DNA from: Oceanobacillus damuensis
GTDB taxonomy: Bacteria > Bacillota > Bacilli > Bacillales > Amphibacillaceae
DNA length: 64,000 nucleotides
Direction: 5' to 3'
Assembly (NCBI RefSeq): GCF_001618145.1
Contig: NZ_LQNF01000004.1
Coordinates: 62,001-126,000, forward strand
Of the stretch, positions 18,439-27,568 are shown piece by piece (positions within the stretch are counted from its first letter, which is position 1; every line of letters begins with the position of its first letter). Both the position numbers and the translations under genes were made by a program. The notes under the pieces were generated by a model. The model had not been told where the DNA came from and made no database searches. It saw only the letters and a list, made by a program, of their open reading frames with translations.

Positions 18439-18720
18439 CAATAACTTAATCGATCCAGGCTATGATGAAGATTAGTAGTTTATCAGGACACTAAAGAGAG
18501 CTGGTGGTGCTGCAAACCAGTGTGACCCCAATAAATGAATGGACTTCTGAGCTACCAAACCGAACCATGTAATTAATGCAGTAGGCTTTGGCGAACAGGT
18601 CTCATCGTTATACGAGACGAATATTGAGCGTTCAGCTTGATATTGCTAAAGTGAGCTGTTTTCAGCTAATAAAGGTGGTACCACGGTCCCTCGTCCTTTT
18701 CGGATGTGGGGCCTTTTTGT
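18439..18720 (+). ncRNA. T-box leader 1, tryptophan-specific
   Basis: The leader has a Stem I with GAGAGCTGGTGGTGCTGCAAACCAG, a specifier-loop TGG codon at 18540-18542, the conserved T-box AAAGGTGGTACCACGG (18671-18686), and a terminator stem GGTCCC/GGGGCC with a T-run ending about 18718. Uncharged tRNA-Trp would pair with the specifier and the T-box bulge and allow readthrough. A second complete leader follows before trpE. Confidence 0.93.
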
Positions 18721-18744
18721 ATTCCCGTAAAAGAATTAATAATA

Positions 18745-19047
18745 AATCGTTGAGTAAGAATAGTAAGCAATTGGAAAGTGTTACAGAGAGCTGGTGTTGG
18801 TGGGAACCAGTACACGGATAATTGTTGAATGGCCTTATGAGAGGTTTCCTTAACAAGCCTGAAGATGCTTAAGTAGGGAAGCACGGGTTTCCACCGTTAT
18901 AAGGAATAGATATAAGGATTAATCTTTGCACATGATACAATCCCGTATCTGAAAGATGAAAAGCGTATGCTTTTCAAGTGAGGTGGCACCGCGGTCACAT
19001 ACGTCCTCTTTAAACACAATTAAATTGTGTTTAAAGAGGACTTTTTT
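18745..19047 (+). ncRNA. T-box leader 2, tryptophan-specific
   Basis: A second complete T-box: GAGAGCTGGTGTTGG...GGGAACCAG Stem I, specifier TGG at 18830-18832, and the T-box motif around AGGTGGCACCGCGG (18981-18994). It ends in a very strong terminator: an 18-bp perfect stem (19003-19020 with 19024-19041), three-base loop and six T residues. In series with leader 1 it should give a steep two-stage response to uncharged tRNA-Trp. Confidence 0.93.
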
Positions 19048-23486: not shown

Positions 23487-24682
23487 CAGCTTATACGATG
23501 CCAGACAAGAGCGGAAAATATGGAGATTTTGGAGGAAGATTTGTTCCCGAACTACTCATGCCCGCAGTACTCGAGCTTGAAGAAGCATACGAAGCAGCAA
23601 TAAAGGATCCCGGCTTCATTAATGATTTAAACTATTATTTAAAGCAATATATCGGACGTGAAACACCATTGTACTTCGCAGAACAAATGACGAAAAGTCT
23701 TGGCGGGGCTCAAGTTTACTTGAAACGGGAGGACCTGAATCATACAGGGGCACATAAAATCAATAACACTATCGGCCAAGCACTGCTAACGGTTCGGATG
23801 GGCAAGAAAAAAGTTGTTGCAGAAACAGGTGCAGGTCAGCATGGTGTTGCTACAGCAACCGTCTGTGCACTGCTCGGTCTTGAATGTATCGTCTTTATGG
23901 GTGAAGAGGATATTCGCCGTCAAAAACTGAATGTCTTCCGGATGGAACTATTGGGAGCTGAAGTTAAAAGTGTCTCCCAAGGCAGTGGCACACTGAAAGA
24001 TGCAGTCAATGAAGCATTACGTTACTGGGTCAATCATGTCGAGGACACACATTATATTATCGGTTCTGTTGTAGGGCCACATCCTTTCCCAAAAATCGTT
24101 CGCGATCTGCAGTCCGTCATTGGCTCTGAAACAAGAAGACAAATTGTTGACCAGAGCGGAAAACTTCCAGAAGCTGTTATTGCCTGTGTTGGTGGCGGAA
24201 GTAATGCAATGGGAATGTTTTATCCATTTATAGAAGATACGGACGTCAAATTATTTGGAGTGGAAGCTGGTGGAGCAGGCATTGAAACAAACCAGCATGC
24301 CGCCACATTAACCGGAGGAAATGTTGGTGTATTACATGGTACATTAACCTATCTGCTGCAGGATCACGACGGGCAAATTGAAGAGGCCTTCTCTATCTCG
24401 GCAGGACTGGACTACCCTGGTGTCGGTCCGGAGCATAGCCATCTCCACGAAGCGAATCGTGTTACCTATACATCGATTACGGACGATGAGGCCCTTGAAG
24501 CTTTTCAATTTTTATCAAGAAAAGAAGGAATTATCCCTGCATTGGAAAGCTCCCATGCAGTGGCATACGCCATGAAGCTGGCAAAGGAGATGTCACCCGA
24601 GGAAACAATTGTCATCTGTCTTTCAGGGCGCGGAGATAAAGATGTAGAACAAGTGAAAGAACGGATTGGAGGGAAACTATAA
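23483..24682 (+). CDS. trpB: Tryptophan synthase beta subunit
   Basis: A 399-residue PLP enzyme condensing indole with serine in the alpha2-beta2 complex. It has [18 protein letters not shown], the PLP lysine in [62 protein letters not shown] (phosphate cup), and [19 protein letters not shown]. This is the canonical TrpB1 form. It overlaps trpA by the TAATG junction. Confidence 0.98.
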
Positions 24683-25473
24683 TGGGCAAAGCGATGCTGG
24701 AAGAAACGTTGCAGGAAAAAATAAAGTCCGGTGAAAATATATTTGTCCCTTACATTATGGCAGGTGATGGCGGACTCGATATTCTGGAGGAAAGAATTAA
24801 TTTCTTACAGGAATGCGGCGCATCGGCAATAGAGGTGGGTATCCCCTTCTCAGATCCGGTTGCAGATGGTCCAATCATTCAGGAAGCCGGTATTCGTGCC
24901 TTGGACAATGGCACTACTTTAGCAAAGGTATTAGAGACATTACAAGCATTCAAAGCAAACCGCACCATCCCAATTATTGTAATGACATATTTAAATCCTG
25001 TCTTCGTTTATGGGGTTGATAGATTTGCAAAGGACTGTACAAATGCAGGTGTCGACGGTGTTATTATACCTGACTTGCCAATGGAGGAAGAGCACATCAT
25101 TTCCCAGCCATTAAGTAATCATGAAATAGCATTTGTAAGGCTTGCCGCAATGACAAGTCCAAAACAACGTTTAACAGAACTGGCAAAAAGATCGGAAGGC
25201 TTCCTGTATGCAGTAGCTGTTAATGGTACAACTGGTGCCCGTACTTCTCATGATGATAAAGTGCAATCCTATCTGAAAGAACTTAAAGAGCATGCTGAAG
25301 TTCCTGTCTTAGCAGGATTCGGTGTATCAACTACGGAACAGGCGCATGCACTCAGTAATCATTGCGATGGGGTAATTGTAGGAAGTAAAATTGTCCAGCT
25401 TTTACATGAAGGGCGTTTACAGGAAATCCACCGTTTAATTGAAGGCAGTATATTAGCCGAAGTCAGCAGTTAA
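24682..25473 (+). CDS. trpA: Tryptophan synthase alpha subunit
   Basis: A 263-residue TIM-barrel lyase that releases indole from indoleglycerol phosphate. The catalytic Glu lies in SAIEVGIPFSDPVADGPIIQEAGIRALDNG (both signature residues Glu and Asp visible). PIIVMTYLNPVFVYG, DGVIIPDLPMEEE, and VLAGFGVSTTEQ with CDGVIVGSKIVQLL complete it. Last gene of trpEGDCFBA. No convincing terminator follows before the next promoter at 25538. Confidence 0.97.
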   Translation: MGKAMLEETLQEKIKSGENIFVPYIMAGDGGLDILEERINFLQECGASAIEVGIPFSDPVADGPIIQEAGIRALDNGTTLAKVLETLQAFKANRTIPIIVMTYLNPVFVYGVDRFAKDCTNAGVDGVIIPDLPMEEEHIISQPLSNHEIAFVRLAAMTSPKQRLTELAKRSEGFLYAVAVNGTTGARTSHDDKVQSYLKELKEHAEVPVLAGFGVSTTEQAHALSNHCDGVIVGSKIVQLLHEGRLQEIHRLIEGSILAEVSS

Positions 25474-25537: not shown

Positions 25538-25566
25538 TTTACATTTCAAACAATTGGAAGTAAGAT
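25538..25566 (+). promoter_or_regulatory. Promoter upstream of the TPP riboswitch
   Basis: TTTACA (25538-25543), 17-base spacer, TAAGAT (25561-25566); the start is predicted near 25573, about 20 bases before the riboswitch. Confidence 0.6.
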
Positions 25567-25592
25567 TAAATAGTAAACAATTTAAAAAATAA

Positions 25593-25686
25593 GCACTAGG
25601 GGAGCTGTTAAGCTGAGAAACACTACATTTTAGTGTTGACCCTTTGGACCTGAAATGGATAATACTATCGTAGGGAATGTGCAGTC
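25593..25686 (+). ncRNA. TPP (THI-box) riboswitch
   Basis: The conserved cores are present in order: AGGGGAGCTG, GCTGAGA, ACCCTTTGGACCTGA, TGGATAATACTATCGTAGGGA. P1 would form from GCAC (25593-25596) and GTGC (25679-25682). The 3' strand of P1 overlaps TGCAGTC (25680-25686), which can pair with GACTGCA in the downstream terminator stem. Ligand binding should therefore free the terminator and turn the genes off. Confidence 0.93.
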
Positions 25687-25716
25687 AATGTGTATATTTT
25701 TGATTTTCACTTCACC

Positions 25717-25753
25717 AAAAGACTGCAGTCTTCTAAATTCTGCAGTCTTTTTT
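25717..25753 (+). terminator. Riboswitch-controlled attenuator in front of lipM
   Basis: A perfect 12-bp stem AAAAGACTGCAG (25717-25728) / CTGCAGTCTTTT (25740-25751) with T-run, 36 bases before the lipM start. The alternative pairing with 25680-25686 makes it the expression platform of the TPP riboswitch. Confidence 0.88.
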
Positions 25754-25788
25754 AGTGAATAAATGCAATTCAAATGGAGGTGAATAGG

Positions 25789-26640
25789 TTGAGAAGACAA
25801 TGGGCTTTTATTGATACTGGTTTCAATGATGCCGCAATCAATATGGCATTTGATGAATGTCTGATCAATTGGCAGAGTGAAGGGAAAATCCCGCCCACTC
25901 TAAGATTCTATGGATGGAAGGAACCGAGTTTATCTATCGGATACTTTCAAAAGGTGGAGAAGAAAATAGACTTCGAGGCGCTGCAGAACCATAACTGTCA
26001 GTTTGTCCGCCGCTTGACTGGTGGCAGTGCTGTACTGCATGATAACGAACTGACATACAGTTTGGTTATTTCGGAAAATGATCCTGACATTCCTTTAACG
26101 GTGCAGGAAGCGTACTATGTTCTATCAAAAGGTGTGCTGGAAGGGTACAAAAATTTAGGCATTCCCGCAGAGTATGCGATTGTCGAAAAGCGGGCTGATA
26201 AAGAACGAACACCTATATGCTTTGAAAAACCTGCTTTTTACGAAATGGTGGTGGACGGGAAAAAGCTGTCCGGCAATGCCCAAACCAGAAAAAAAGGTGT
26301 ATTGCTGCAGCATGGGTCCCTTCCAATCAGCATGGACACCACGATGTTATTTGATTTATTCCAGTTCCCTTCCGAAAAAATGAGGGAAAGAAAACGAACT
26401 TCCTTTTCAAAGAAAGCGATTACAATGGACCAGCTTACTACTAAAAAGCACAATTACGAAACGCTGACGAAGGCTTTTGAAGACGGCTTCAAGAGAGGAC
26501 TGGATATCGAGCTCCATCCTTTGGAATTATCAAAAGATGATTGGGATGAAGTGAAGGCATTAGCGAAAGCAAAATATGAATCGGATGCATGGAATATAAA
26601 CCAAAACAAGGAGCGTGCTATCGTTGACAAAACAGGCTGA
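25789..26640 (+). CDS. lipM: Octanoyltransferase LipM (lipoate protein ligase-like fold)
   Basis: A 283-residue protein of the biotin/lipoate ligase family. [37 protein letters not shown] and [28 protein letters not shown] are family motifs. The cysteine at about residue 144 ([12 protein letters not shown]) corresponds to the catalytic Cys of LipM, which moves octanoyl from ACP to GcvH, rather than an ATP-dependent ligase. The start is TTG at 25789 with GGAGGTG eight bases upstream; the ATG at 25774 overlaps that Shine-Dalgarno. It overlaps lipA by 17 bases. It is controlled by the preceding TPP riboswitch. Confidence 0.88.
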
Positions 26641-27568
26641 ACACATTCGTAAACCGGAATGGTTAAAAACAAAAATTACTACAAATGATTCGTACAAAAA
26701 ACTAAAGCATCTCATGCGTGACAAGCGACTGAATACAGTTTGTGAAGAAGCAAAATGTCCAAATATCTATGAGTGCTGGAGTGAACGAAAAACCGCTACA
26801 TTTATGATACTAGGTGATACTTGTACACGCGGATGCAGGTTCTGTGCGGTCAAAACTGGTCTTCCGAACGAACTCGACTGGGGAGAACCAAAGCGTGTTG
26901 CTGACTCAGTTGAAATTATGGGACTAAAACATGTTGTAGTGACTGCAGTTGCCCGTGATGATTTAGCTGACGGCGGAGCAGCAGTTTTTGCCAATACAGT
27001 ACGGGCCATTCGTGCCCAACGCCCAGGCTGCACCATAGAAATCCTTCCATCGGATATGAAAGGTGATTATGAAAGTTTACATACACTGATGGACAGTGAG
27101 CCAGATATCTTCAATCATAATATTGAGACGGTTCGTCGATTGACAAAACGTGTCCGGGCAATCGCAAAATATGACAGGTCGCTGCAGCTTCTTAAGCGTG
27201 TAAAAGAAATTGCACCGAAAATTCCTACAAAGTCAAGTATCATGTTGGGGCTCGGCGAAACAAAAGAGGAAATCCTGGAAACGATGGACGATCTATTGGC
27301 ACATGATGTCGATATTATAACGATCGGTCAATATCTGCAACCAACGAAAAAGCATTTAAATGTGGAACGTTACTATCATCCGGATGAATTCGAAGAGTTA
27401 AAAAGAATTGCTTTGGAAAAAGGTTTTTCCCATTGTGAATCAGGTCCACTTGTACGCTCGTCCTATCATGCAGATGAGCAGGTCAGCCAATCTTCTGCCC
27501 AAAAAAGAATTGACTATATGAAGGGTGTCGAGTCACAAGAGGATAAAGAAGTTAATTTTAAATTTTAA
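26624..27568 (+). CDS. lipA: Lipoyl synthase (radical SAM)
   Basis: A 314-residue enzyme inserting two sulfurs into protein-bound octanoyl groups. The auxiliary cluster CxxxxCxxxxxC is in [16 protein letters not shown]; the radical SAM CxxxCxxC is in [13 protein letters not shown]; the C-terminal auxiliary Ser is in [13 protein letters not shown]. Other typical stretches: [65 protein letters not shown] at 26624 fits the AAGGAG at 26608-26613; GTG at 26615 is too close. It forms an operon with lipM, giving an endogenous lipoylation route for 2-oxoacid dehydrogenases and glycine cleavage. Confidence 0.96.

Follow-up and report, generated by a model that had tools for sequence, protein, structure and literature searches.

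A predicted TPP-sensing attenuator of the lipoate biosynthesis genes lipM-lipA in Oceanobacillus damuensis and its kinship with the ykoF riboswitch

The sequence and comparative data suggest that the lipoate biosynthesis operon lipM-lipA of Oceanobacillus damuensis would be repressed by a TPP-sensing transcription attenuator that probably derives from a ykoF operon, appears to have spread between genera as a cassette together with the two genes and may serve as a gauge of outside vitamin supply; we give this combined reading a probability of about 0.85. In the proposed mechanism for the leader, which lies in the 64,000-nucleotide stretch of DNA analyzed here (the window), (i) RNA polymerase would start near position 25573 and make the aptamer, (ii) with TPP bound, P1 would hold its 3' strand GTGC, TGCAGTC would be kept from GACTGCA, the terminator would form and transcription would end 36 bases before lipM, and (iii) when TPP is scarce, TGCAGTC would pair with the terminator's 5' arm, leaving lipM-lipA to be transcribed.

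All elements of the leader are on the + strand. The aptamer (THI element, RF00059) at 25588-25694, behind trpA (24682-25473), was recovered at full length by a covariance search of the window against Rfam (cmscan, model positions 1-105, 72.4 bits with a gathering threshold of 54.3, E 2.6e-12), which bears out the complete TPP aptamer that the earlier note had recognized before lipM. The 5' strand of P1, GCAC (25593-25596), pairs with the 3' strand GTGC (25679-25682), as placed by the Rfam alignment and checked pair by pair. The antiterminator consists of TGCAGTC (25680-25686) and GACTGCA (25721-25727), which form seven pairs, all Watson-Crick, and its 5' strand shares positions 25680-25682 with P1, making the platform exclusive with P1; the earlier note had drawn this arrangement at the same positions, correctly. 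GACTGCA is part of the 5' arm of an intrinsic terminator (25717-25753) with a 12-bp stem, AAAAGACTGCAG (25717-25728) and CTGCAGTCTTTT (25740-25751), a loop of 11 bases and a T-run at 25748-25753; it is aligned in eight members of the genus and was not listed by a simple terminator scan because the loop limit of that scan is 8. As to the promoter that the earlier note gave the switch, a consensus scan finds a promoter-like site, TTTACA-17-TAAGAT, at 25538-25566, which is weak taken alone. Over the 40 family loci with a switch (see below), the best site 5' of the aptamer scores on average 8.7 out of 12 as compared to 7.9 in shuffles, none of 100 of which attained the observed mean, and in 23 of the 40 that site has TTTACA for its first hexamer.

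The leader folds with a z-score of -3.72 relative to shuffles. In fold computations on the window, the antiterminator has a probability of 0.56 before the 3' arm of the terminator is made and of approximately 0 once it is complete. At equilibrium the terminator wins with or without P1 and, therefore, the ligand must act kinetically, during transcription, a behavior often seen in riboswitches of this kind. The platform is also conserved. Scanning within 130 bases identified a terminator in 59 of 66 lipM and ykoF switches; among the remaining seven, five look terminator-like by eye (G018, G012, G045 and the ykoF switches of G011 and G035). In the 59 switches, the duplex between the 3' region of P1 and the 5' arm of the terminator has a mean energy of -12.0 kcal/mol with its own partner, -11.1 kcal/mol when partners are swapped (of 5000 permutations, one gave a value as low as that of the own partners) and -5.3 kcal/mol with shuffled arms.

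For both genes of the operon, the likely start differs from that of the listed reading frame. lipM (25789-26640, +), which encodes an octanoyltransferase with the LplA-B catalytic fold (PF21948, 145.9 bits), most likely starts at the TTG at 25789, 36 bases past the T-run and behind the ribosome-binding site GGAGGTGA (25776-25783, +, read from the sequence); the listed frame begins at an ATG at 25774, i.e. ahead of this site. The claim of a classical terminator 36 bases before lipM holds if this TTG is the start. lipA (26624-27568, +), encoding lipoyl synthase (TIGR00510, 400.8 bits, cut-off 310.25), likely starts at a TTG that overlaps the end of lipM, with the listed frame beginning at a GTG at 26615; it is the single lipA match in the genome and is located behind the switch. 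The genome contains three LplA-type genes. LplJ matches TIGR00545 with 470.7 bits. The name LipL rests on a best model score of 354 bits, below the cut-off of 400, and also on the location of the gene beside what we take, from its translation, to be pta. The third protein, that of the window, matches PF21948 and reaches the cut-off of no NCBIfam model; its length is close to that of LipL and shorter than that of LplJ, and its CFE cysteine is C144 counted from the TTG. Given that LipL and LplJ are encoded elsewhere, we assign it by exclusion as LipM, the predicted octanoyltransferase from ACP to GcvH. LplJ belongs to the lipoate enzyme set of Bacillus subtilis, in which lipM and lipA are unlinked. 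The enzymes of the B. subtilis LipM/LipL/LipA relay (PMC10332631) are encoded here as well; the difference is that here lipM-lipA form an operon behind a riboswitch.

Eight TPP elements are present in the genome. The other seven precede, by names read from the reading frames, ykoF, thiE-thiO, a short-chain reductase gene, tenA, a thiW-like gene followed by tenA, a ylmB-like gene and thiT. At the window locus no thiamine gene lies between the switch and lipM, as the earlier note had stated for this genome. Two other leaders deserve mention: tandem T-box leaders precede the trp genes of the window (18453-18701 and 18741-19011), and at L003 (G000:C1:150835-150935) and at L227 (G018) a FabG-like reductase gene, with a gene that reads as a flavin-dependent monooxygenase behind it, lies downstream of a TPP riboswitch.

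A comparison of relatives, which the earlier note had proposed, shows that riboswitch-lipM synteny is conserved in 40 of 97 loci of the family, in 15 genera. Within the genus (28 genomes), TPP elements are present in all 28, and lipM and lipA are found in the same 17. Both genes are missing from 11 of 28 genomes at E <= 1e-20 and the operon is, therefore, dispensable in the genus; these 11 genomes keep LplJ, a gene content that implies lipoate auxotrophy. Upstream of lipM on the same strand, 12 of the 17 genus loci (including that of G012) have a TPP element at the level of Rfam; one more, in G020, is degenerate, scoring 40 bits with a model, R1, made from 19 such elements within the genus, and was missed by Rfam, and in the remaining four neither scan detected an element. 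In the family, lipM was found in 99 of 159 genomes at E <= 1e-45, and the loci analyzed comprise the 17 of the genus and 80 of 82 outside it (G135 and G136 were left out). lipA directly follows lipM on the same strand in all 97. A same-strand TPP element precedes lipM in the 40 loci mentioned, one of them degenerate; 13 of these loci belong to the genus and the other 27 are spread over 14 further genera. The element is absent upstream of lipM in 57 of the 97, including the four of the genus. Seventeen of the 27 elements from outside the genus were submitted to Rfam and all 17 score above gathering, as do 3 of 3 from the order. That 40 of 97 loci share the element argues that the leader is more than chance. 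The distance from switch to lipM exceeds 250 bases in 12 of the 40 loci, and some of these long spacers hold repeat-like DNA, with possible room for another promoter.

Beyond the family, lipM was found in 374 of 397 genomes of the order, from which a non-random sample was taken (the 29 best-scoring new loci plus nine family members already covered, with 336 of the 374 genomes outside it). In this sample, 3 of 29 loci from other families (two families) carry a clear TPP element, one further locus has a weak possible remnant (18.7 bits), and the thirtieth source, L034, has no TPP element. Two side observations from these searches concern neighboring RNAs: G014 has tandem TPP riboswitches approximately 100 bases apart (G014:C1:2000418-2000732), with similar pairs in G013, G021, G022 and G024, and in G010 a Bacillaceae-1 RNA (RF01690; L025, 1295-1362) is located between the TPP switch and lipM.

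The closest kin of the lipM switch is that of ykoF. In the family, the ykoF TPP riboswitch (RF00059) shares with it the aptamer group, a GTG(C/T)(A/G)GTC-like antiterminator and the GACTGCA terminator arm, and differs in what it controls, i.e. thiamine or precursor binding and uptake rather than lipoate synthesis. Thirty ykoF loci were scanned, of which 24 gave a TPP match and six gave none and are absent from the aptamer tree; with the match of G088 counted under lipM, 23 ykoF aptamers entered the tree. In this tree (92 rows and 108 columns, hence weak inside), one branch with support 92/91 separates 40 of 43 lipM aptamers and all 23 ykoF aptamers from 29 other rows. A clade that unites all 43 lipM aptamers can be rejected (p = 0.0061), whereas one restricted to the 40 core lipM aptamers (p = 0.072) and one of all 66 lipM and ykoF aptamers (p = 0.085) cannot. 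The three lipM aptamers outside the branch, those of G012, G045 and G322, stand apart from the ykoF type and their terminators differ as well; in the gene tree G012 and G045 fall among loci lacking a switch, and G322 neighbors a locus whose switch is of the ykoF type. These three switches are perhaps separate captures, with the aptamer of G045 forming a long branch. In G012, a reductase gene (NF006393) lies between the switch and lipM-lipA; the FabG-like reductase at L003 and L227 is its homologue, and that of L003 likewise matches NF006393.

Several loci have the appearance of intermediates. In G088, the order is TPP-ykoF-lipM-lipA with overlapping reading frames (ykoF, PF07615, 179.6 bits), and a second, more distant ykoF is found elsewhere in that genome. 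In G104, lipM-lipA follow ykoF and two further genes, one ATPase-like and one CbiQ-type, the latter ending approximately 30-40 bases before lipM, with no switch of its own before lipM within the 2 kb fetched. In G147 and G155, ykoF and ATPase-like and CbiQ-like genes are followed by TPP-lipM-lipA (the CbiQ model was run on G104 and G147 only). Based on the ykoF-type aptamer and these intermediate operons, we suggest that the switch was probably captured from a ykoF operon. In this scenario, lipM-lipA would probably have joined an operon for thiamine-precursor binding and uptake before standing alone, the order of steps being our reconstruction, and later would have spread as a cassette. The link of the switch to lipoate would thus be derived, yet kept and spread. 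ykoF is more common in genomes with a lipM switch (28/40 versus 16/57, p = 7e-5, kinship ignored), as expected from a ykoF origin.

The cassette occupies different neighborhoods, in which gene names were read from translations and clusters. It sits after trpA in O. damuensis and seven other members of the genus, between ileS and lspA in G014 and G009, beside a symporter-like gene in G007 and G010, and at other sites too. The idea that the switch belongs to the trp operon was rejected, given that the TPP-lipM-lipA unit occurs at other sites, as was a plasmid-borne cassette, four plasmid records showing partial similarity only (37-42% of the query). In a tree of LipM and LipA (126 rows, quick method), a switch is present in 42 of 66 rows of one clade and in 1 of 60 of the other (G012); the trait changes 12 times, nine of these forced by strongly supported branches, versus 35.9 times in shuffles. 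Members of the genus fall in five places of this tree, and G007 and G010 group with the genus g38, inside which they fall in the aptamer tree with lower support. From these trees, the cassette appears to have moved between genera together with its switch.

The earlier note had offered as an alternative that a thiamine gene was lost from this very site. The spacers between switch and lipM of the 40 family loci were searched by tblastn with a reductase protein and two YkoF proteins (E up to 1), which turned up the intact ykoF of G088, the reductase gene of G012 and, in G151, a weak match to YkoF (17 residues, of which nine consecutive ones are identical to the end of YkoF, E 0.14). When the search was widened to 24 YkoF proteins and an E limit of 5, the G151 match came up again with other weak ones, and shuffled spacers gave E-values as low (best values of three rounds 0.006, 0.089 and 0.13). 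The G151 match is a possible decayed remnant of ykoF, no better than these controls; a start resembling one behind a ribosome site was noted beside it (L104). Among the matches listed in the wider search there is no YkoF remnant in the window, and the loss of a thiamine gene at this very site was rejected, the spacer tblastn listing none there. What survives of this alternative is the kinship with ykoF and a probable past in a ykoF operon. Among relatives, a thiamine gene right after the switch (the earlier note had named a thiamine transporter gene at this place as an observation that would refute it) was encountered once, as the thiamine-binding ykoF that precedes lipM-lipA in G088, and no intact thiamine gene was found between switch and lipM in the other 39 of 40 family loci. 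Given that the switch is kept with lipM-lipA and that these 39 loci have no such gene in between, direct control of lipM-lipA by TPP, as the earlier note proposed, is strongly favored by the comparison across genera and unrelated neighborhoods.

The shared ancestry with the ykoF switch also fits an explanation in which lipM-lipA were inserted behind ykoF and the control works, serves no purpose and persists by inheritance. TPP-ykoF-lipM-lipA in G088, the CbiQ-type gene of the ykoF cluster just before the switch-less lipM of G104, and ykoF with transporter genes followed by TPP-lipM-lipA in G147 and G155 are in line with it, as are the nine-residue match to the end of YkoF in G151, at the level of shuffled controls, and the degeneration of the element in one member of the genus and perhaps in one locus outside it. 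However, the switch has persisted in cassettes that moved to unrelated sites or, apparently, from one genus to another, and the unlike aptamers of G012, G045 and G322, with their places in the gene tree, suggest separate gains, although the data do not reject a clade joining them with the ykoF aptamers (p = 0.085). We consider purposeless inheritance unlikely.

It is more doubtful still that lipM-lipA are expressed mainly from another promoter or by read-through, so that TPP has a small effect in this genome. For the stretch from trpA to the aptamer the simple scan shows no terminator, making read-through from trp possible, and the spacers are long in several relatives; against this, the gap between terminator and lipM is just 36 bases including the ribosome site, read-through would meet the terminator too, and the aptamer and the antiterminator/terminator pairing are preserved. 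Least probable, to the point of being nearly dismissed, is a switch of opposite sign, in which TPP would activate lipM-lipA so that lipoate keeps pace with the TPP enzymes at work. Its appeal is one of biochemical logic, 2-oxoacid dehydrogenases requiring both TPP and lipoate. The bases shared by P1 and antiterminator mean that a P1 stabilized by the ligand favors the terminator, and ykoF, which is related to uptake and for which repression by TPP is expected, lies behind the same platform.

Returning to repression by TPP, its physiological sense may lie in vitamin supply. thiC is found in 14 of 159 family genomes and in 0 of 28 members of the genus, and LplJ in 158 of 159 family genomes. By gene content, members of the genus would depend on outside pyrimidine or thiamine and could take up lipoate. 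With thiC absent and LplJ near universal, TPP may report the outside vitamin supply: in times of plenty the cell would salvage lipoate, and in scarcity it would make it. thiC is not significantly rarer in genomes with the switch (2/40 versus 11/57, p = 0.067, kinship ignored). The link is unlikely to reflect a competition of LipA with ThiC over SAM or iron-sulphur clusters, the genus having no thiC.

A 2013 survey of TPP regulons describes the TPP riboswitch as its most ubiquitous RNA motif and sorts the targets into two categories, one for thiamin biosynthesis and one for the transport of thiamin or a precursor (PMC3766115). The switch described here shares with those regulons the riboswitch class and the expected repression by TPP; it differs in its targets, lipM and lipA falling outside both categories and no word beginning with 'lipo-' occurring in the main text of the survey (PMC3766115). 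That lipoate genes are not usual TPP-riboswitch targets had been remarked in the earlier note. A 2022 review counts lipoic acid among the near-universal coenzymes lacking a validated riboswitch class (PMC10043782). A literature search that covered few subscription journals and no supplements found no publication in which lipoate genes are connected with a TPP riboswitch.

The lack of a riboswitch class for lipoate may be made up here by a borrowed sensor that ties lipoate synthesis to how much of a different vitamin's cofactor is present, and thiamine in the medium is predicted to shut off lipoate synthesis. The case also illustrates, in likely steps, how a riboswitch can pass from one target pathway to another. 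Whether, throughout a large clade of Bacillus relatives, TPP gauges outside vitamins for another cofactor by means of a switch captured repeatedly (from ykoF, and in G012, G045 and G322) and spread between genera as a cassette is a broader proposal to which we assign even odds. The arrangement, shared by many related bacteria, suggests that in these organisms the making of one vitamin is set by the supply of another.
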